A stretch of 64,000 nucleotides of DNA from Amycolatopsis albispora (lineage in GTDB: Bacteria; Actinomycetota; Actinomycetes; Mycobacteriales; Pseudonocardiaceae). The notes under the pieces are model-generated. The model was not told where the DNA came from, searched no databases, and saw only the letters and a program-made list of their open reading frames with translations. The stretch is from NCBI RefSeq assembly GCF_003312875.1, contig NZ_CP015163.1, forward strand, positions 2,976,001 to 3,040,000. Reading direction: 5' to 3'. This document shows, piece after piece, positions 9,458 to 18,038 of this stretch. Every line of letters starts with the position of its first letter. The first letter of the stretch is position 1. The position numbers and the translations under genes are program-made.

Positions 9458-10819
9458 ATGGACCAGCACGATCGCGAAGCGCGTGCCGGACAGGCCAGGC
9501 CGCTCGCCGCGGCGCTCGGCGAGCGCGGGGTCGCCGCCGTCGCGGTGACCTGGGTGGACACCAGCGGCATCACCCGCGTCAAGGCGGTCCCGGTGCCGCG
9601 GCTCGAGCACGCCGCCGCCTGGGGCATCGGCGCGTCGCCGGTGTTCGACGCCTTCCTGGTCGACGATTCCGCGGTGACCGGCCGGTTCGCCGGCGGCCCG
9701 GCGGGTGACCTGCGGCTGCACCCCGACCTGGACCGGCTGACCGTGCTGGCCGCACAACCGGGCTGGGCCTGGGCGCCCGCCGACCGCTACCAGCAGGACG
9801 GCACACCACACCCGGGCGATTCGCGGCTCCTCGCGCGCCAGGCCGTCGCCCGGCTCGCCGAACTCGGCCTGACCGCGCGGCTGGCCTTCGAGGTCGAATG
9901 GTGCGTGTCCCTCGGTGACGGTGACGAGTTCGTCCCGGCGAGTCCGGGCCCGGCCTACGGCATGTCCAGGATCGCCGACCTGTCCGGTTACCTGCACGAA
10001 CTGCTGGAGGCGCTGAGCGCGCAGGGCGTGGCCGTCGAGCAGTTGCACCCCGAATACGCCGCCGGTCAGTTCGAGGTGTCGGTGGCGGCAACGGACCCGG
10101 TGGGCGCGGCGGACCTGCTGGTACTGGTGCGCGAGACCATTCGCGCGGTCGGCCGGCGACACGGCCTGCGCACCACCTTCGCGCCGAAGGTGGTGGCGGG
10201 CGGGGTCGGCAACGGCGGGCACGTGCACCTGAGCCTGTGGCGTGACGGCACCAACCTGATGGCCGACGGCGACGGCTGGCACGGGCTCACCGAGCTGGCC
10301 GAGGCCTTCGCGGGCGGCATCCTGGACCGGCTGCCCGGCCTGCTCGCCATCGGCGCGCCGTCGGTGGCCAGCTACCTGCGGCTGGTGCCGTCGCACTGGG
10401 CCGGTCCGTTCCGCTGCTGGGGCTGGGAGAACCGCGAAGCCGCGCTGCGCCTGGTTTCCGGGGAGTCCGGCCACGGCCAGCGCGCGGCGAACCTGGAGGT
10501 CAAGGCGTTCGACGGGGCCGCGAACCCGTACCTGGTGGTGGCCGCGCTGCTCGCCGCGGGCTCCACCGGCATCGCCGAGCAGGCGGCGCTGCCCGAGCCG
10601 ATCCAGGTCGACCCGGCCACCCTGCCCGAGGACACCGTGCAACGCCTGCCGGACAACCTCAGCGCGGCGGTCACCGCCTTCGAAGCGGACCCGGCGCTGC
10701 GCAAGGCGCTCGGCGAGGAACTGGTGGACACCGTGATCACCGTGCGTCGCGGCGAGGTCGCCTTGTTCGGCGGCCTCTCCGCCGAAGAAGTCGTGGCGCG
10801 CACCCGATGGCGCTACTGA
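9458..10819 (+). CDS. Glutamine synthetase-like protein (type III / gamma-glutamyl-ligase-like, FluG C-terminal-like)
   Basis: This is a 453-residue glutamine-synthetase-fold protein. Motifs: the N-terminal beta-grasp region around WVDTSGITRVKAV, the metal ligands in AFEVEW and the EYAAGQFEVS stretch, the ATP-binding GGVGNGGHVHLSLW, and the Arg-containing SYLRLVPSHWAGPF and CWGWENREAALRL. It differs from housekeeping GlnA by lacking the adenylylation loop Tyr, so it probably ligates an amine other than ammonia to glutamate. ATG 9458 is preceded by GAGGG. It is divergent from the amidohydrolase. Its 3' end lies close to, or overlaps, the small membrane protein gene. Confidence 0.87.
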   Translation: MDQHDREARAGQARPLAAALGERGVAAVAVTWVDTSGITRVKAVPVPRLEHAAAWGIGASPVFDAFLVDDSAVTGRFAGGPAGDLRLHPDLDRLTVLAAQPGWAWAPADRYQQDGTPHPGDSRLLARQAVARLAELGLTARLAFEVEWCVSLGDGDEFVPASPGPAYGMSRIADLSGYLHELLEALSAQGVAVEQLHPEYAAGQFEVSVAATDPVGAADLLVLVRETIRAVGRRHGLRTTFAPKVVAGGVGNGGHVHLSLWRDGTNLMADGDGWHGLTELAEAFAGGILDRLPGLLAIGAPSVASYLRLVPSHWAGPFRCWGWENREAALRLVSGESGHGQRAANLEVKAFDGAANPYLVVAALLAAGSTGIAEQAALPEPIQVDPATLPEDTVQRLPDNLSAAVTAFEADPALRKALGEELVDTVITVRRGEVALFGGLSAEEVVARTRWRY

Positions 10820-10836
10820 CGCGATACCGTGAAGCC

Positions 10837-11154
10837 ATGGCCGCTGCCAAGAACAGCACCGGCAGGTCGGACGACGAGCCGAACCCCCGGTTCCACGAAG
10901 ACCTCGTCGGGCTGGACCCGGCGGATCCGGAAGCCCAGGAGTTCGCCCGCCATCTCGACCGGATCGAGCGCTGCGGGCCCGCCTTCACCGTGGAGGCCTC
11001 GCTGGACGGGGTGGCCGAGTTCGCCGACTCCAGCCGCCGCGCCGGTGGTTTGCGCTGGTGGACGGCGGTGGCCGTGGTGTGCCTCATCCTGATCGGCGTG
11101 ATCGTCGCCTCGTGGGACATCGTGCTGCGGACGCTGGCCTGGCTCGCCGAGTAA
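10837..11154 (+). CDS. Small single-helix membrane protein, function unknown
   Basis: This is a protein of about 105 residues with an acidic N-terminal half (PRFHEDLVGLDPADPEAQEF) and one C-terminal membrane helix (TAVAVVCLILIGVIVASWDIVL) followed by a short tail. No family is recognised. ATG 10837 is preferred. ATG 10807 would overlap the glutamine-synthetase-like gene by 13 bases and is also possible. It ends two bases before the start region of msrB, so it may be co-transcribed with it. Confidence 0.6.
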   Translation: MAAAKNSTGRSDDEPNPRFHEDLVGLDPADPEAQEFARHLDRIERCGPAFTVEASLDGVAEFADSSRRAGGLRWWTAVAVVCLILIGVIVASWDIVLRTLAWLAE

Positions 11155-11173
11155 CGTGGGTGGTGTGAAAGGT

Positions 11174-11596
11174 ATGAAGCCCGTTGTCGGCGCGACTCCC
11201 CGCGTGGTGAAGTCCGAGCAGGAGTGGCGGGAGCAGCTCGGCCCCGAGGAGTACGCGGTGCTGCGTGAGGCAGGCACCGAACGCCCGTTCACCGGCGAGT
11301 ACACCGACACCAAGACCACCGGCGTCTACGAGTGCCGCGCCTGCGGCGCCGAGTTGTTCCGCAGCGACACCAAGTTCGAAAGCCACTGCGGCTGGCCGTC
11401 GTTCTACGACCCCGCCGATTCCGACGCGGTGCTGCTGCGTGAGGACCGCACCATGGGCATGGTCCGCATCGAGGTGCTGTGCGCGTCGTGCCACAGCCAC
11501 CTCGGGCACGTGTTCGAGGGCGAGGGCTACGACACGCCGACCGACCAGCGGTACTGCATCAACTCGATCTCGCTGAAACTGGTGCCCAAGCCGTAA
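11174..11596 (+). CDS. msrB: Peptide-methionine (R)-S-oxide reductase MsrB
   Basis: This is a 140-residue methionine sulfoxide reductase B, repairing oxidised methionine (R epimer) in proteins with thioredoxin as reductant. The two zinc CxxC pairs are CRAC and CASC, with the conserved ESHCGWPSF between them. The catalytic Cys lies in RYCINSISL at the C-terminus. ATG 11174 is preferred over GTG 11156 because the family begins directly with a short stretch before EWREQL and a purine-rich GAAAGG lies just upstream. The next gene downstream is the first of the three TIGR04222-type genes. Confidence 0.95.
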   Translation: MKPVVGATPRVVKSEQEWREQLGPEEYAVLREAGTERPFTGEYTDTKTTGVYECRACGAELFRSDTKFESHCGWPSFYDPADSDAVLLREDRTMGMVRIEVLCASCHSHLGHVFEGEGYDTPTDQRYCINSISLKLVPKP

Positions 11597-11667
11597 CCCG
11601 TTCCGGGGACAGCCGCCTCCCCCGCCCGATACCGTGACGCGCACGCTTCGGGTGGGAGGGGCACCGA

Positions 11668-12570
11668 ATGGCTGATCCGTGGGGGCTGTCCGGCCCGGTT
11701 TTCCTGATCATCTACGCCTGCTGCCTGGCCGTACCGACCGTGGTGCTGGCCTCCGGGCTGGTGCGGCTCCGCTCGGGCACCGCCGGCGCGGGGCAGGGCC
11801 CGCTCGACGCGGTCCAGGCCGCGTTCCTGCGCGGCGGCCCGCGACGCGCGGCCGAGACGGTGCTGGCCGGGCTGATCGAGCGCGGCCTGCTGCGGGCGGA
11901 TTCCTCGGGCACCCTGCGCCACACCGGCGGCGCCGGCGCGAACCCGCTGGAACAGCAGGTGCTGGCGAGCACGAGCGGCGCGGGCGGTCGCACGCCACTG
12001 ACGCTGGTCACCGGGCTCGGCCGCTCCGGTGCCATGCAGGCGCTGCGGGCCGACCTGGTCGCCAAGGGACTGCTGGTCGACGCCCGGCGGCGGCGTGCGG
12101 TGTGCTTCACCGCGCTCGGGCTGTACGGCCTCGTGCTGCTGCTCGGCCTGTTCCGGATCGCGGTCGGAGTCGCCGGGCAGTTCCCGGTCGGCTACCTGAC
12201 GCTGATGGTGGTCGCCGCGCTGGCCGGCCTGATCACCACGTCGACGCTGCTGGTGCGCGGCGGTGACCAGCCGACGCAGGAAGGCAGGCGGACGCACACG
12301 GCCACCTTCCCCGGAGCGCCGGGAAAGGTGGCCGCTCACGGCCTTTCGTCGTACCCGGACCACAAGATCCGCAAGGCACTGCGGTACAGCATGGCCCTGC
12401 CCCGGCGGCGGCGGTCGAATTCTTCGTGCGGAAGCTATGCCGGTGGTGCCATGGTGAGTGGTACGGGTTGCGCGTCGGCCGGCAGCGGCTGCTCGTCGTC
12501 GTCCTCGTCGGGTGGTGGCAGCAGTTGCGGAGGCGGCGGCGGTTGCGGTGGTGGTGGCGGAGGAGGCTGA
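11668..12570 (+). CDS. TIGR04222-type membrane protein 1 with Cys/Gly-rich C-terminal tail
   Basis: This is a 300-residue member of the family I remember as TIGR04222 (near_uncomplex). Order: start MADPWGLSGPVFL running into a membrane helix, a winged-helix-like cytoplasmic part (GGPRRAAETVLAGLIERGLL), a second hydrophobic block (about residues 150-205), a linker with the conserved GLSSYPD motif, and a low-complexity tail. The tail carries five cysteines in Ser/Gly context and ends CGGGGGGG. The tail could be a substrate for the DUF692 enzyme three genes downstream (inference). GGGAGGGG precedes ATG 11668. The next gene starts three bases after the stop. Confidence 0.82.
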   Translation: MADPWGLSGPVFLIIYACCLAVPTVVLASGLVRLRSGTAGAGQGPLDAVQAAFLRGGPRRAAETVLAGLIERGLLRADSSGTLRHTGGAGANPLEQQVLASTSGAGGRTPLTLVTGLGRSGAMQALRADLVAKGLLVDARRRRAVCFTALGLYGLVLLLGLFRIAVGVAGQFPVGYLTLMVVAALAGLITTSTLLVRGGDQPTQEGRRTHTATFPGAPGKVAAHGLSSYPDHKIRKALRYSMALPRRRRSNSSCGSYAGGAMVSGTGCASAGSGCSSSSSSGGGSSCGGGGGCGGGGGGG

Positions 12571-12573
12571 GCG

Positions 12574-13494
12574 ATGGACGAGACCTGGGGCCTGACCGGA
12601 TCCGGTTTCCTCGGGCTGTACCTGGCCCTCTTGGTGGTTCCGGGGCTGCTCGGCGCGCTGGTCACGCTGGCCGTCCGGCAGCTGCGGCTGCACGGCTCCG
12701 CACCGGACGATTCGCCGTTGCCGACCGACTACCACGTCGCCTACCTGGCCCGCGGTCCGCTGCGTGCGGTCGAAACGGCCATCGCCGCCCTGGTCGACCG
12801 CGGCAGCCTGCGGGCGGAAAGCGGCGGGCGCGTCACCTCGGTCGGCGGTGAGCCGGAGGACGACCTCGAGCGCGTCATCTTCGAGACCGGTTATCTCGGC
12901 ACGACCACGAACGAAGCCGCGGTCGCCGCGCTGAAGTCACCGGAGCTGACCGAGATCCGGCGTGATCTCGAACTCCGCCGGCTGATCGAGCCGGAGTTGC
13001 CCACGCACGTGATCTGGCTCGGGGTCACCGTGCTCTACGGCCTGGTCACGCTGTTCGGCCTGGTGCGCTGGTTCGCGGTGGTCACCACGAGCACACCGAT
13101 CGGTTTCCTCAGCTTCCTGATCTTCGTCGCGGCCGGTGCCGCCTTCGCCGCGCTGGCCCCGGCCCGCCGGCGGCCGCGGTTGCTCAAAACCGAGCTGGGC
13201 AAGCAGGTGCTGCGCGCGTCACGGCAGAACCTGACCGGCGTGACGCGTGAGGTCGCGCTGAACGGCGGCCTGTCAGCCTATCCGGATCCCGAGGTCGCGC
13301 CGGTGCTGGAGCTGAAGTTCAACCGCTCGCGTCGACGCTACCCGGGGACCAGCAGCGCCGGGGTGATCGCCGGAACGCTGCTCGCGGGCGCGTTCGGGCA
13401 CGGGGTGCCCGGCGACAGCGGCGCCGGGGACGGCGGTGGCTGCGGTTCCGGCTGCGGTGGCGGTTGTGGTGGTGGCGGAGGCGGCGGCAGCTGA
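12574..13494 (+). CDS. TIGR04222-type membrane protein 2 with Cys/Gly-rich C-terminal tail
   Basis: This is a 306-residue paralogue of the preceding protein: start MDETWGLTGSGFLGLY, the same RGPLRAVETAIAALVDRGSL segment, a hydrophobic pair near residues 145-205, the GGLSAYPDPE motif and a tail with three evenly spaced cysteines (GCGSGCGGGC followed by glycines). The ribosome site GGAGG lies inside the glycine codons at the end of the upstream gene, so translation is probably coupled. Its N-terminal part is much more divergent from its paralogues than the tail chemistry is. Confidence 0.82.
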   Translation: MDETWGLTGSGFLGLYLALLVVPGLLGALVTLAVRQLRLHGSAPDDSPLPTDYHVAYLARGPLRAVETAIAALVDRGSLRAESGGRVTSVGGEPEDDLERVIFETGYLGTTTNEAAVAALKSPELTEIRRDLELRRLIEPELPTHVIWLGVTVLYGLVTLFGLVRWFAVVTTSTPIGFLSFLIFVAAGAAFAALAPARRRPRLLKTELGKQVLRASRQNLTGVTREVALNGGLSAYPDPEVAPVLELKFNRSRRRYPGTSSAGVIAGTLLAGAFGHGVPGDSGAGDGGGCGSGCGGGCGGGGGGGS

Positions 13495-13573
13495 TGCCGG
13501 TGGAATTACGGCCAGAACTGTCGGTGCACTGACCTAGGCTCCGGACAGGTTCGATTCGGTGGGAGGCCGAGTG

Positions 13574-14476
13574 ATGAAAGACCCATGGGGCATCTCGGGT
13601 CCGGGGTTCATCGTGGGGTACCTGTGCCTGCTGGCCGCACCACTGGTGATCGCGCTCGTCGGCCGCATCGTGCTCGCTTTCACCGGGAAGCGGGCGGCCA
13701 CCGCGTACGTGCCCGGCAACGTGTACGAGGTGGCGTTCCTGGCCGGTGGGCACGACCGGGTCGTCGAGACCGCCGTGGCGTCGCTGCTCGAGCGCGGGGT
13801 GTTCCGCGCGGACAGCACGGGGCGGGTGAGCGCCGCCGGTGCGGTGCCGTCCGATCCGGTGGAGCAGGCGGTGTACCGGGTGGTCGCGCGCCGCGGCACC
13901 ACGCGGATGCCCGACCTGCGCCGCGAACTGCGCTCGGCGGCGGTGCTTCGCGGCATGGCCAAGCATCTCACCGACGCCGGGCTGATCCGGCCCATCGGCG
14001 GGCGCGTGGTCCTGCGGCGGATGGTGTTCTCGCTGTACCTGCTGGTGCTGGGCATCGGCGTGGTGCGGCTGATCAGCGGTATCGCGCTGGACCGGCCGGT
14101 GGGTGTGCTGATCTTCCTGCTGATCATCGCCGCGGTGGCCACGTTCATCGCCTCACGGGTGGCCAAGGCGGCGCCCATGGTGCGGCCGACCGCGCAGGGC
14201 TCGGTGCAGCTGGCGAGCGCGCGGAAGGCGCAGTCGCAGCGGCATTCCACGCGGTCGGGCGGCCCGCACCGGTCGTCCGCGGCGGTGCCGATCCTCGCCG
14301 GTGCCGCGGGCGCGGTCGCGCTGGGCGGCATGATGATGTATCCGGACGAGGAACTGCGGACGGCGCTGGCCGCTCCTCCCGCGGGCGGTTCGTCCGGTGG
14401 GGACGGTGGCGGCTCGTCCTGCAGCGGTGGTTCGTCCGGGTGCGGTGGTGGCTGCGGCGGGGGTTGTGGTGGCTGA
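13574..14476 (+). CDS. TIGR04222-type membrane protein 3 with Cys/Gly-rich C-terminal tail
   Basis: This is a 300-residue third paralogue: start MKDPWGISGPGFIVGY, a GGHDRVVETAVASLLERGVF winged-helix-like segment, hydrophobic blocks near 155-200 and 240-260, the MMMYPDEEL motif and a tail with four cysteines ending GCGGGCGGGCGG. GGGAGG at 13561-13566 fits ATG 13574. The stop codon overlaps the DUF692 gene start, so this protein is the one translationally coupled to the enzyme. That makes it the first choice as its substrate. About 79 non-coding bases separate it from paralogue 2, leaving room for its own promoter. Confidence 0.83.
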   Translation: MKDPWGISGPGFIVGYLCLLAAPLVIALVGRIVLAFTGKRAATAYVPGNVYEVAFLAGGHDRVVETAVASLLERGVFRADSTGRVSAAGAVPSDPVEQAVYRVVARRGTTRMPDLRRELRSAAVLRGMAKHLTDAGLIRPIGGRVVLRRMVFSLYLLVLGIGVVRLISGIALDRPVGVLIFLLIIAAVATFIASRVAKAAPMVRPTAQGSVQLASARKAQSQRHSTRSGGPHRSSAAVPILAGAAGAVALGGMMMYPDEELRTALAAPPAGGSSGGDGGGSSCSGGSSGCGGGCGGGCGG

Positions 14477-15278
14477 GCTGCCCCGGTTCGGCGTCGGGAT
14501 CGGCTGGCGGCCGGAGCTGGACCTGACGGTGCCGCGCCTGCCCGGGGTCGACTGGGTGGAGGTGGTCGCGGAGAACCTCCAGCCCGGCGCGCTCCCGGCG
14601 ACGCTGACCGCGCTGCGCGATCGCGGCATGCCGGTGCTGCCGCACGCGGTGTCGCTTTCGCTGGGTGGCGCCGAGGAACTGGACACCCGGCGGGTCGAGC
14701 ACCTGGCCGAGCTGACCGAGGCGCTGGGGGCGCCGGTGGCGAGCGACCACGTGTGCTTCGTGCGCGCGGGCGGGCTGGACGCGGGTCACCTGATCCCGTT
14801 GCCGCGTACGCGCGAGGCGCTGGACGTGCTGGTGGACAACGTGAAGCTGGCGCAGTCGATCCTCGGGGTGCCGTTCGCGCTGGAGAACATCGCGGCGCTG
14901 CTGGAGTGGCCCGATCCGGAGCTCAGCGAGGCGCGGTTCCTGGCCGAGCTGACCGATCGCACCGGCTGCCTGCTGATCGTGGACGTGGCGAACCTGTACG
15001 CCAACGCCCGGAACCTGGGCAGCGACCCCGTGTCCTTTTTGGACGAAATCCCCCTGGACCGGCTCGCCTACGTACACGTGGCCGGCGGCGAAGAACACCA
15101 CGGCATCTACCACGACACACACGCCCACGCCGTGCCACCACCGGTACTGGACCTACTCGGCGAGCTACGGTCCAGAGTGGACCCACCCGGCGTCCTCCTA
15201 GAACGCGATGACGCCTACCCCACCGATGCCGAACTGGCCGCGGAACTGGCCGCCATCCGCGCCGTAATCGAGCCATGA
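14469..15278 (+). CDS. DUF692 family (MNIO, multinuclear non-haem iron) enzyme
   Basis: This is a 269-residue TIM-barrel enzyme of the DUF692/MbnB-like class. Known members use two or three irons to modify cysteines or other residues in ribosomally made peptides. Likely metal ligands are visible: His59 in LPHAVSLSLGG, His94 in SDHVCFV, Glu139 in LENIA, Asp172 in DVANLYANARN, His203 in VHVAGG and the HDTHAH cluster (215-220). GTG 14469 (or 14466) overlaps the stop of the third TIGR04222-type gene by 8 bases, indicating coupling. Codon use in the last 250 bases drifts to A-ending codons. The next intact gene encodes its probable partner protein, after the duplicated-junction array. Confidence 0.88.
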   Translation: MAELPRFGVGIGWRPELDLTVPRLPGVDWVEVVAENLQPGALPATLTALRDRGMPVLPHAVSLSLGGAEELDTRRVEHLAELTEALGAPVASDHVCFVRAGGLDAGHLIPLPRTREALDVLVDNVKLAQSILGVPFALENIAALLEWPDPELSEARFLAELTDRTGCLLIVDVANLYANARNLGSDPVSFLDEIPLDRLAYVHVAGGEEHHGIYHDTHAHAVPPPVLDLLGELRSRVDPPGVLLERDDAYPTDAELAAELAAIRAVIEP

Positions 15279-15747
15279 GCCGGAAACAGCGGTCCGCCCG
15301 CTATACGCACCACGCACCACGCACCCGACGGTACCCACCCCACCAGCCGCAACCCACACAGCGGTCAAGCCATGAGCCGGGACCAGCGGGCCACCCGCTA
15401 CGCGCACCACACGCCGACGCCACCCCGCCAACCGGCTTCAACGCGCGCCAGGCAAACGTCAAGCCACAATCGCAAGCGGCCCACCGGCATGCCACTGAAA
15501 CACAACAAAACCCACGCCACCAACGCCGACCTAACCGCAACCCACACGGCGATCAGCCCATGAACCGAGCACTAACCGCAATCCGCACGGTGGCCGAGCC
15601 ATGAGCCAGCAACAGCGGGCAGCCCACTACGCGCACCACGCGCCCACGGCACCCCACCCCACCCACCGCAATCCACACGGCGATCAGCCCATGAACCGAG
15701 CACTAACCGCAATCCGCACGGTGGTCGAGCCATGAGCCGCGAACACC
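15255..15747 (+). repeat. Array of decayed copies of the DUF692-partner gene junction
   Basis: Six related units start near 15255, 15347, 15535, 15576, 15666 and 15707. Each looks like the end of the DUF692 gene (A-I-R-T-V-x-E-P then TGA) followed by ATGAGCC, the start of the partner gene. After the ATG, units 2 and 4 keep CAGCGGGC..CGC/CACTACGCGCACCAC. Unit 2 retains a decayed match to the partner's PPPGF motif. Units 3-4 and 5-6 form a near-perfect repeat of about 72 bases offset by 131. The frames are short or scrambled, so only the first DUF692 end and the last partner start are functional. The strand is unusually rich in C and A and poor in G. Confidence 0.8.
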
Positions 15748-16079
15748 TGGCGGCGCAGCAAGCGGACCTACTGCGTGCACTACTCGCCGACGGCACTCCC
15801 CCACCCGGCTTCGACACCGACCGGGTGGCCGTCGAGGTGCGGGCGCTGCGCGCCAAGCGCCGCCGGGTCGTCGCCTACCTGCGGCCCGACCTGGCGCAGG
15901 AGCTGGACGACAGGTTCACGCCCCTGTTCGACGAGTACGCGGCCGCGCACCCCCGTGAAGAAGGCGTCCGGATGCGGCAGGACGCGGAAAACTTCGCGAA
16001 CTGGCTCACCGCGAAGGGCGAGCTGAAGCCACCGCGCTGGTGGCGGCGGTTACCAGGACGGGCGATCCGAGCCCGGTAG
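15732..16079 (+). CDS. Probable MNIO partner protein (SCO6045-like)
   Basis: This is a 115-residue basic, helical protein: QQADLLRALLADGTPPPGFD, then VRALRAKRRRVVAYLRPDL and a C-terminal FANWLTAKGELKPPRWWRRLPG. The layout (helix, PPGFD turn, Arg-rich helix) is what I remember of the SCO6045-like domain found beside, or fused to, DUF692 proteins in actinomycetes. It may recruit the substrate, as DUF2063-type partners do for other DUF692 enzymes (inference). ATG 15732 follows the last copy of the duplicated junction. The 3' end overlaps the convergent CoA-transferase gene by 30 bases. Confidence 0.7.
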   Translation: MSREHLAAQQADLLRALLADGTPPPGFDTDRVAVEVRALRAKRRRVVAYLRPDLAQELDDRFTPLFDEYAAAHPREEGVRMRQDAENFANWLTAKGELKPPRWWRRLPGRAIRAR

Positions 16080-17387
16080 CCGGGTACCTTCCGTCCACTG
16101 TGGATTCGCACCGGGCACCGGGACGTAGGTCAGTTCGCCATAGGCGCTGGGCAGCGTCGCCAGCAGGTCGTCCACCTGGTAGCCGGTGTCGGTGATTTCG
16201 CGGCGCCCCAGGGATTCCAGCCATTCCGCGGTGTGCGCGAGCGCCACCTGCCCACGCCAGCCGCCGCCATCGGTGGCGGCGCGGCGCACCGCGGTCATCA
16301 CCGTCGCCGCGGCGAGCCAGCCGGTCGCGTGGTCGAGCGCCTGCGCGGGCAGCGGGCGGGGATGATCAAGCCCGGCGTGCGCGGCGATGCCGGTGGCCAG
16401 CTGCACCAGGCTGTCGAAGCCGCGCCGGTTGCGCCACGGGCCGTGCCAGCCGTACGCGGACAGGTCGAGCGTGATCAGGCCAGGGAACTCGTAGGCCAGT
16501 TCCTCCGGCGAGAAGCCCCAGCGGGCCAGCGCGCCGGGACGGAACGACTGCACGAACACGTCCGCCCTGGCCAGCAGCTTGCGCAGCCGCGCACGACCGG
16601 CGTCCTGCGTGAGATCGGTGAAGGCAGAACGCTTCCCGAGCCCGGTGTCCATCCACAGTGGATCGATCCGCGGCAGGTGGGCGGCGCCGATGTGCAGCAC
16701 GTCGGCGCCGTGCGCGGCGAGCACTCGCCCCGCCACCGGCCCGGCGATGACGTGGGTCAGTTCGAGCACGCGGACCCCGCCGAGCGGGCGGTCCGACTCG
16801 AACAGCCGCTTCGGCAGCGCGTCGCCGGTCTGGCGCAGCTCGACCAGCGGCTGTCCCGCGACGGCTTCGCCCTGCGGGTGGTTCAGCCAGTCCTGGCGGG
16901 TGCGCAGCAACGCGGCCGCCCCACCGGCCGCGATCACCGCCTCCTGCACCTCGCGGGCGCGGCGCTTGGCGACCGCCTCGGTGACCGCCTCGCGGGTAGC
17001 GGCGGTGCCGAGCCCCCAGCAGACGGCGGCGACGTGGCGGGGGTAGTTGCAGTGCAGCCGGACCCACCCGTCGGTGGCGAGGTAGTCGCCGGTCAACGGC
17101 GCCCACAGCTCGCCGGGGACCTGGCCGTCCACCCGGAGGTGGCGCTCACTGTGGAACGAAGCCACCGCATGCCGCAGGTCAACCGCGACCGGCGGCGGCT
17201 CGATCCCCCGCACCCGAAGCAACTCACCCGCGGCGAGCGTCGCGACCCCGACACTGGCCGCCGCGGCGGCCGCCACCCGGAACGGCCCGGGCAGCACGGA
17301 CTCCTCGCCCCCGACCGCCACCGCCCCCGGCGGCAGGCTTTCCCCGCTGACCTGCCGCCACACCGCGGCGAGTTCTTCTTCGATCAC
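16050..17387 (-). CDS. CaiB/BaiF family (class III) CoA-transferase
   Basis: This is a 445-residue class III CoA-transferase. Such enzymes move CoA between carboxylic acids through an Asp-linked intermediate. Visible are GGVRVLELTHVIAGPVAGRVLAAHGADVLHI, the WMDTGLGKRSAFTDL block, ARADVFVQSFRPGALARWGFSPEEL and GFDSLVQLATGIA. The N-terminal 190 residues are an extra domain of the kind seen in two-domain members. Substrate acids are not predictable. GTG 17387 lies six bases after the stop of the coiled-coil gene, so the two are co-transcribed. Its 3' end overlaps the convergent partner-protein gene. Confidence 0.87.
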   Translation of the reverse strand: MIEEELAAVWRQVSGESLPPGAVAVGGEESVLPGPFRVAAAAAASVGVATLAAGELLRVRGIEPPPVAVDLRHAVASFHSERHLRVDGQVPGELWAPLTGDYLATDGWVRLHCNYPRHVAAVCWGLGTAATREAVTEAVAKRRAREVQEAVIAAGGAAALLRTRQDWLNHPQGEAVAGQPLVELRQTGDALPKRLFESDRPLGGVRVLELTHVIAGPVAGRVLAAHGADVLHIGAAHLPRIDPLWMDTGLGKRSAFTDLTQDAGRARLRKLLARADVFVQSFRPGALARWGFSPEELAYEFPGLITLDLSAYGWHGPWRNRRGFDSLVQLATGIAAHAGLDHPRPLPAQALDHATGWLAAATVMTAVRRAATDGGGWRGQVALAHTAEWLESLGRREITDTGYQVDDLLATLPSAYGELTYVPVPGANPQWTEGTRLPGSDRPSW

Positions 17388-17393
17388 GTTCCC

Positions 17394-18038
17394 TCAGTTG
17401 CTCTCGGGCCGCTGCCCGCTCAACAGCTCGATGATCTGCCTCAACTGCTCGCCCTGGCTGTCGAGCTTGGCTCCGTGACTGTCGAGCTTGACCCCTTGGC
17501 TATCGATCTTGGCACCTTGGCTGTCGAGCTTGGCCGCCTGGCTGTCGAGCATGGCGCCTTGCCTATCGAGCATGGCCCCTTGACTGTCGATCTTGGCCGC
17601 CTGACCGCTGAGCATCAGCGACTGGGCGTCCAGGCGAACCTTGATGTTCTCGAACTCGATGTCATGCCCGTCCAGCCGGGTTTCGATCCGGCCGAACCGA
17701 GCGTCGTACTCGCCGAGTCGGGTATCCAAGCCATCCAGCCGGGTGTCGATTCGGTTCAGGCGGGTGTCGATGGTGTCGAACCGGGTCTCGTGGTGGGCGA
17801 GCGCCTCGGTGTGTGCTTCCAGCGTGGCCTGCATCCGGCTCAGCTGAGCACCGTGGTCATGCTGCACTTCGAGGACCGACGCCACCTTCGTGTCGATGGC
17901 GTCGACCCTCGTGTCGATGCCATCGATCCGCTTGTCGATGACGTCGACTCTCTTGTTCGTGTCGTCGAGGAGTTCGTACACGTCGTCGACGTCGTGGCGC
18001 AGTTGCTTCTGCTTCCGGTTGATCTCGGGGAAAGACAT
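17394..18038 (-). CDS. Coiled-coil protein with LDSQGA heptad repeats, function unknown
   Basis: This is a 214-residue protein that is almost entirely coiled coil. The first 130 residues alternate IDxRVDxIDT-type heptads. Residues about 150-200 are seven-residue repeats of the type (K/M)LDSQGA, with hydrophobic residues every seventh position. No signal peptide or membrane helix is seen. Such trimer-like repeats also occur in phage tail fibres and autotransporter stalks, but nothing nearby supports that here. ATG 18038 is preceded by a GGTAAGGTGG stretch. It is probably co-transcribed with the CoA-transferase. Confidence 0.75.
   Translation of the reverse strand: MSFPEINRKQKQLRHDVDDVYELLDDTNKRVDVIDKRIDGIDTRVDAIDTKVASVLEVQHDHGAQLSRMQATLEAHTEALAHHETRFDTIDTRLNRIDTRLDGLDTRLGEYDARFGRIETRLDGHDIEFENIKVRLDAQSLMLSGQAAKIDSQGAMLDRQGAMLDSQAAKLDSQGAKIDSQGVKLDSHGAKLDSQGEQLRQIIELLSGQRPESN

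Follow-up and report, generated by a model that had tools for sequence, protein, structure and literature searches.

Which molecules does an enzyme of the MNIO family (DUF692, PF05114) act on when its gene stands behind a row of genes for membrane proteins with cysteine-bearing tails? This question is raised by a 64,000-nucleotide stretch of DNA from Amycolatopsis albispora (NCBI RefSeq assembly GCF_003312875.1, contig NZ_CP015163.1, positions 2,976,001 to 3,040,000; the whole stretch is referred to here as the window), which encodes three TIGR04222 membrane proteins, an MNIO, and a small protein of 115 residues. A first interpretation, made from the letters of this DNA (the sequence-only reading), had proposed that the membrane proteins are full-length precursors whose tails are oxidatively modified in place by the enzyme with the aid of the small protein. 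As judged from the sequences of related genomes, the MNIO, its partner, and a Cys-tailed TIGR04222 protein constitute a real, near-obligate, and conserved three-part module, and the best reading of this module is probably the in-place oxidation of the TIGR04222 tail cysteines by the MNIO and its partner.

The idea of a membrane-protein precursor turned out not to be new, as the same proposal is already in print: the accessible sections of Antoine et al. 2025 (PMC12452194) describe TIGR04222 proteins beside MNIOs, with Cys-bearing Gly/Ser tails, subsets of which are proposed as MNIO substrates. Literature searches on TIGR04222 and on DUF692/MNIO found no experiment on the TIGR04222–MNIO group. 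New with respect to the printed account are the near-universal presence of the partner, its fusion to the enzyme, the grammar of the tails, the dependence of the Cys tails on the MNIO, a conflict over topology, and a single loss in Streptomyces.

Linkage of the MNIO, its partner, and TIGR04222 proteins

Linkage was surveyed in 150 genomes of the order, searched for both MNIO and TIGR04222 and with matches of over 200 bits regarded as strong MNIOs, and in a second, named set, made up of 80 loci selected for their MNIO similarity, which overlaps the order set in part by origin (L326 and G137 share a contig stretch). An MNIO was found in 55 of the 150 genomes, a TIGR04222 protein over the cut-off in 59, and TIGR04222 together with an MNIO of over 200 bits in 52, the absences of TIGR04222 being soft because first-look candidates were scored only in part (with ceilings of 13, 17, or 52 per genome). 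TIGR04222 genes lie within 8 kb of 50 of the 59 MNIO matches, always upstream and on the same strand, a recurrence that places the arrangement beyond chance. Counted from the MNIO matches over 200 bits, the link holds in 50 of 54. Of the four strong MNIOs that lack it, three (G080, G104, and G007) border upstream on a contig edge, the fourth being that of G069, and neither TIGR04222 nor a partner accompanies the five weak, divergent MNIOs. A genome survey of this adjacency had been named by the sequence-only reading as a possible refutation; its outcome is instead favourable. Within the named set, TIGR04222 is present in 74 of the 80 loci, and a linked tail with at least three cysteines in 65. 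Three substrates for one enzyme had also been considered notable, but two or more TIGR04222 genes adjoin the MNIO in 15 of the 50 linked loci (two in seven, three in six, and four in two), which makes an array of three unremarkable.

In a search with a profile of 35 homologues of the 115-residue protein, the window's own included, a PF26136-like partner accompanies all 54 strong MNIOs, in 53 cases inside the MNIO gene or within 460 bases of it and in one at 3.6 kb, and it is found in 78 of the 80 named loci, the contig ending soon after the MNIO in the other two. On sequence grounds, this near-universal partner goes against the published impression of many partner-less clusters: the accessible text of PMC12452194 reports a partner for 10% or more of the TIGR04222 clusters, with many two-gene clusters apparently devoid of one, although the denominators differ, loci being counted here from the MNIOs. 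The same article defines the small PME-type 2 partners, one of which is a 115-residue protein of Saccharothrix sp. NRRL B-16314. The locus of that strain (L297) encodes a member of the partner family that, from its first ATG, has 115 residues and agrees in both strain and length with the published PME-type 2 model A.

An indication of what this small protein does comes from Streptomyces, where it is mostly fused in frame with the MNIO. In named Streptomyces and in genus g48 (presumably Streptomyces as well, judging by the named loci), the fusion was observed in all six loci of a first set; in 26 of the 30 loci of a second set, with two genomes shared between both; and in 23 of the 80 named loci, all 23 among the 26 Streptomyces of that set. 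A single fusion was found outside Streptomyces (L104). The accessible text of PMC12452194 makes no mention of an MNIO–partner fusion, and an artificial HvfB–HvfC fusion constructed by others mimicked the active complex (PMC13419390). A fusion that occurs in nature argues strongly for joint action of the MNIO and the partner, and the 115-residue protein is thus very probably the MNIO partner, as the sequence-only reading had anticipated.

With regard to its family, the database entry of the 115-residue protein (P0001) bears PF26136, whose label, "SCO6045-like C-terminal domain", derives from the names of relatives; PF26136 is absent from the matches listed in our own Pfam scan of the window's partner. 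No DUF2063 match was obtained at E-values up to 1, which separates the protein from the PME-type 1 partners (DUF2063-RRE, about 250–260 residues). It is encoded after the MNIO, has no DUF2063 match, and shows a moderate structural match to MbnC, and so belongs with the PME-type 2 partners. The predicted structure consists of four helices (mean pLDDT of 82.3), and its best solved structural match is MbnC, the MNIO partner in the methanobactin system, with a score that is moderate for a helical protein. Among PDB sequences, a profile of the partner retrieved nothing convincing (best E-value 0.074).

The enzyme, the single MNIO found in the 9.12-Mb genome, scores 275.1 bits with PF05114 (cut-off of 25 bits) and aligns to the solved TglH, DUF692, and MbnB chains; its alignment to MbnB, together with the match between the partner model and MbnC, recalls the MbnB/MbnC pair of methanobactin. 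Residues H59, H94, E139, D172, N175, H203, D216, H218, and E245, which we take to be the ligands of a multi-iron site, are invariant among 16 aligned enzymes and are the same letters in 3bww. The best NCBIfam match is BufB, at 197.8 bits under a cut-off of 310, and HvfB reaches 158.1 bits, below its cut-off of 360. With these scores, and with 300-residue membrane proteins as candidate substrates, the locus falls outside the bufferin and oxazolin systems. Like bufferins, oxazolin, and captophorins (MNIO plus PME-type 1), it combines Cys-Gly sites with an MNIO and a partner, but bufferin-type substrates are peptides with a Sec signal served by DUF2063-RRE partners (PMC12452194, PMC13419390, both in their accessible sections), whereas here they would be integral membrane proteins served by a four-helix partner. 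The closest likeness is to the TIGR04222–MNIO clusters of Antoine et al., as far as their accessible description goes, in which Gly/Ser/Cys-tailed TIGR04222 proteins adjoin the MNIO and the partners are of PME-type 2.

Cysteine tails and their distribution

The three TIGR04222 proteins of the window hold Gly/Ser/Cys tails (at about 12418–12567, 13420–13491, and 14390–14473) with five, three, and four cysteines, respectively, in their last 60 residues, the second protein ending in CGGGGGGGS and the third in CGGGCGGGCGG. These counts, and the family assignment by NCBIfam scores, agree with the sequence-only reading. Its view of the tail as the sole unusual feature shared by the three proteins has to be corrected, as the whole TIGR04222 domain is common to them, each having the profile match, the hydrophobic segments, and the low-complexity tail of the family.

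Among the MNIO-linked TIGR04222 proteins of the order loci, 63 of 75 have at least three cysteines in the last 60 residues, and the MNIO-proximal protein has such a tail in all 50 loci. The tails follow a recognizable grammar: 51 of the 63 end exactly in CGG, the most frequent distance from one cysteine to the next is six residues (101 of 232 intervals), and glycine follows cysteine in 234 of 294 cases, compared with 62% glycine in the rest of the tail.

Away from the MNIO, the picture is different. Outside the neighbourhood of an MNIO there are 48 TIGR04222 places, of which 40 were covered by the 38 stretches read and the other eight lie below the cut-off; stretches L147–L157 (ten below the cut-off and one, at 43.1 bits, in the A. 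albispora genome itself) gave no profile match and stand outside the 29 unlinked proteins that resulted. Cys tails are present in six of these 29 (one of which, L120, is cut before the tail), and all six belong to MNIO-bearing genomes, one of them (L145) lying near a contig edge and therefore perhaps linked. In genomes with TIGR04222 over the cut-off and no MNIO, a Cys tail was found in none of seven. Gly/Ser-rich tails of DUF2207 proteins, taken as a further control, have at least three cysteines in none of eight cases, seven of them in MNIO-free genomes; this control is weak, since only 27 of its 30 loci gave a complete frame, many frames were plainly wrong, and eight were Gly/Ser-rich. As a separate observation, loci L131, L132, L133, L134, and L136 hold Cys-tailed TIGR04222 proteins encoded at a distance from the MNIO gene of their genome, which are possible substrates in trans.

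A search of the A. albispora genome for frames ending in GGCGG followed by a stop gave nine DNA matches, the only long frame being that of protein 3, and no further substrate family emerged from it. Five identical 18-base matches were noted in this genome (G000:C1:1327928, 3128256, 5447996, 5570816, and 7385990), two of which end a 33-codon frame in DGCGGGCGG-stop (L158 and L160) and may represent a repeated element.

Streptomyces departs from the common arrangement. An MNIO is present in 40 of 41 g48 genomes, and TIGR04222 accompanies it in 36 of the 39 MNIO loci compared, downstream rather than upstream; these 39 are part of 45 MNIO places, the remainder being two strong second copies (G367 and G373) and four weak matches. 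The Streptomyces-type loci L167–L172, L210–L238, and L334–L367 mostly show the MNIO and PF26136 in a single reading frame, with TIGR04222 downstream. Loci with a linked Cys-tailed TIGR04222 protein include those of S. avidinii (L343) and S. virginiae (L367). That genomes whose linked proteins have lost the tail might hold a Cys tail elsewhere was mostly not borne out (two of nine sampled, G363 and G347). Among unlinked Streptomyces-type TIGR04222 stretches, four of 20 (L247, L249, L251, and L252) have at least three tail cysteines.

Proposed mechanism and its alternatives

If the tail cysteines are indeed oxidized in place, the MNIO and its PF26136 partner would bind the TIGR04222 proteins at Cys-Gly sites of their disordered C-terminal tails, and the MNIO would oxidize the cysteines, by analogy with related MNIOs most likely to 5-thiooxazoles (−4 Da each). 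The tails would stay attached and turn into metal- or redox-active brushes tethered to the membrane, most probably facing the cytosol, the enzyme's own compartment. According to the accessible part of its description, a characterized thiooxazole-forming MNIO removes four hydrogens (−4 Da) per site, at the Lys-Cys of EGKCG-type repeats (PMC13097082).

Several observations weigh against this mechanism. The tail has fewer than three cysteines in 12 of the 75 linked TIGR04222 proteins, and none at all in five of these. The TIGR04222 loci read in 30 g48 genomes showed a linked Cys tail in 14 of them, the other 16 having nothing but a tail-less form. In a tree of 84 MNIOs (built by a quick method without bootstraps, 10 of its rows carrying no tail label), the change to the tail-less form is a single step in a Streptomyces clade (SH-aLRT of 99); its 13 loci, 12 labelled tail-less and one without TIGR04222, retain the enzyme, the partner, and the metal-site positions without a linked Cys-tailed TIGR04222 protein. 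Because this clade keeps the MNIO, the tail is not the sole reason for keeping the enzyme, which in these strains must have another job or act in trans, and an exclusive pairing of enzyme and tail is disfavoured both by this clade and by the 12 linked proteins mentioned above. The controls are also less independent than their counts, because the TIGR04222 proteins of the seven MNIO-free genomes are a divergent form that matches only some half of the profile, and because a single group of tail-less orthologues (L121–L130) makes up 10 of the 29 unlinked proteins. Finally, a weak fourth hydrophobic segment, found in 19 of 53 order-set proteins (protein 3 included) and 22 of 56 named-set proteins, might bring the tail to the outer side.

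The Streptomyces clade is also what would be expected if the true substrate of the MNIO were another gene product, with the TIGR04222 proteins functioning as receptors or scaffolds and their unmodified cysteines binding metal or forming disulfides: the MNIO–partner fusion persists there with only tail-less TIGR04222 proteins nearby, so that the link outlasts the cysteines. This explanation is nonetheless unlikely, in view of the Cys tail in every MNIO-proximal protein of the order loci, of its absence from the MNIO-free genomes, and of the neighbouring genes of 80 codons or more (called with a simple frame chooser, clustered, and partly identified), none of which spans more than six genera beyond MNIO and TIGR04222, which span 12–15. 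These regularities bear as well on the notion that the cysteines have drifted into Gly/Ser low-complexity DNA and that the neighbourhood is conserved for some other reason. Gly and Cys codons differ by one change in GC-rich DNA, but the exact CGG ends, the preferred spacing of six residues, the constancy of the proximal genes, and the lack of Cys tails both in the MNIO-free genomes and in the (weak) DUF2207 control make drift very improbable. It has also to be considered that the system might produce a ribosomally synthesized and post-translationally modified peptide (RiPP), the modified tail being cut off and released as a free metallophore and the membrane part acting as a large leader. A modified core at the C-terminus is usual among RiPPs, the tails are repetitive and of low confidence in the structural model, and possible release genes occur in places, namely a PF08386 hydrolase (L167, L170, and L171) and an ABC-transporter-like gene (17 of 54 loci). 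However, the ABC cluster is limited to six genera and mostly faces away from the module, whereas all loci in which the hydrolase was identified are of the Streptomyces type, two of them (L170 and L171) without a linked Cys tail; no general release gene was found among the neighbour clusters, an absence that is only suggestive given that these were partly identified. Release of the tail therefore appears quite improbable.

The side of the membrane on which the tail lies is one point where the present analysis departs from the published one. The accessible text of PMC12452194 places the tail in the periplasm on the basis of predicted topology, and the weak fourth segment mentioned above would agree with a tail that acquires its modification in the cytosol, prior to or in the course of insertion, and afterwards remains outside, like a tethered bufferin. 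However, the charge bias points to the cytosol: the density of lysine and arginine is 0.233 in the flanks that lie between transmembrane segments 1 and 2 and behind segment 3, versus 0.065 on the opposite side, and it favours an N-out/C-in orientation with a short external N terminus in 53 of 53 order-set and 52 of 56 named-set proteins (53 of 56 with a plain count instead of a density), computed for Cys-tailed proteins with a regular pattern, that is, 53 of 63 and 56 of 106, respectively. Protein 1 has hydrophobic segments at residues 11–29, 144–162, and 178–196, and neither it nor protein 2 shows the fourth segment. The AlphaFold model of protein 3 (mean pLDDT of 85.9) predicts long hydrophobic helices at 9–37, 141–171, and 177–199, a low-confidence tail, and only an eight-residue helix, at 244–251, where a fourth segment could be. 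From charge bias and model together, a cytosolic tail is thus more likely than an external one, the latter being rather unlikely; a tail in the cytosol would share its compartment with the enzyme, which would make modification possible after insertion. The folded part between helices 1 and 2 of protein 3, with a two-strand hairpin, appears to us winged-helix-like in the model. Foldseek retrieved no solved relative of the TIGR04222 model (best E-value 4.1), and a TIGR04222 profile search gave low-complexity matches and weak matches to MarR-type winged-helix regulators (E-values of 0.21 and 0.25).

Beyond the in-place oxidation of the tails, a broader picture can be put forward tentatively, as a possibility that is more doubtful than not: a standing protein-modification system of actinomycetes, and not a natural-product pathway, in which the two-part MNIO, a single chain in Streptomyces, would turn Cys-Gly sites in place into thiooxazole-type ligands, within the cytosol-facing tails of membrane-embedded proteins. 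These would provide a tethered inner buffer or sensor for metals or redox state, with one to four paralogous carriers, some of them distant and modified in trans.

Gene layout, neighbouring genes, and meaning of the module

Table 1. Features of the module and of its upstream surroundings (positions in the window; cut-off for NCBIfam TIGR04222, 43 bits).
Feature	Positions	Strand	Remarks
Small membrane-type protein adjoining MsrB	10807-11154		
MsrB (methionine-R-sulfoxide reductase), upstream neighbour	11156..11596	+	NCBIfam TIGR00357, 163.5 bits
TIGR04222 membrane protein 1	11668..12570	+	300 aa; NCBIfam 112.9 bits
TIGR04222 membrane protein 2	12574..13494	+	306 aa; NCBIfam 95.2 bits
TIGR04222 membrane protein 3, MNIO-proximal	13574..14476	+	300 aa from ATG 13574; NCBIfam 114 bits
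MNIO (DUF692, PF05114)	14469..15278	+	269 aa; Pfam 275.1 bits
Gap between MNIO and partner	15279..15731	.	453 bases, largely degenerate direct repeats
115-aa partner, PF26136 (SCO6045-like C-terminal domain), very probably PME-type 2	15732..16079	+	Homologues and database Pfam label

The start of protein 3 is taken as the ATG at 13574, with an alternative GTG at 13559, and that of the MNIO as the GTG at 14469, which gives the eight-base overlap with the protein 3 gene (ending at 14476) already reported by the sequence-only reading. The list of open reading frames offers a further in-frame GTG for the MNIO at 14397, and the PF05114 match begins at residue 8 counted from the 14469 start. The small PPGFD protein described as following the DUF692 gene is present, although not immediately behind it, as the repeat-bearing gap intervenes. 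This gap is the second largest of the 54 loci (the next below is 182 bases and the largest 3.6 kb), and its repeats are four degenerate direct copies of 104 nt, at 15208–15768, that echo the junction of the MNIO end and the partner start. An open reading frame within them (15275–15604) holds ATPPTGFNA, which resembles GTPPPGFDT of the partner. An Rfam scan of positions 10000–17500 gave no match above the gathering score, and none of the five proteins was matched by PADLOC.

The most widespread neighbour clusters of the order set are MsrB, a small membrane protein, and an ABC-transporter-like gene. MsrB clusters beside the module in 15 loci, on the same strand and all within family f1 (18 loci), to which the window belongs; the small membrane protein upstream of it also recurs in 15 loci, of five genera, in family f1 only. 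MsrB was considered as a part of the module and rejected, since it is conserved beside it only in this family and thus probably does not belong to it. The ABC-transporter-like gene covers six genera, lies on the opposite strand in 14 of its 17 order loci, and is located about 3 kb downstream, in 12 loci of genus g21 and five others. The PF08386 protein, a TAP-like alpha/beta hydrolase, is found downstream in its three Streptomyces-type loci, L171 also encoding a DUF4142 protein.

Hints about function come from oxidative stress. A table of PMC4991794 that also contains Cys-biosynthesis genes under HbpS-SenS-SenR lists S. coelicolor SCO6045 as induced 3.01-fold after H2O2 treatment of the wild type. 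From its domain name and the gene structure seen in Streptomyces, SCO6045 would be a fused MNIO. The MsrB gene adjoining the module of the window is a weak pointer in the same direction. A metal or redox role is a guess, and a participation in the response to copper or to oxidative stress may be envisaged.

The tail-less Streptomyces strains represent a natural loss clade, and the tail of the MNIO-proximal TIGR04222 protein is the prime candidate substrate. If in-place oxidation of cytosolic tails proves true, both the published periplasmic placement and the statement on partner-less clusters would need correction. The module is relevant to Amycolatopsis, Micromonospora, Streptomyces, and related actinomycetes. 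Given that the MNIOs characterized so far act on peptides, a conserved MNIO system operating on full-length membrane proteins would shift this family from natural-product chemistry towards cell physiology.

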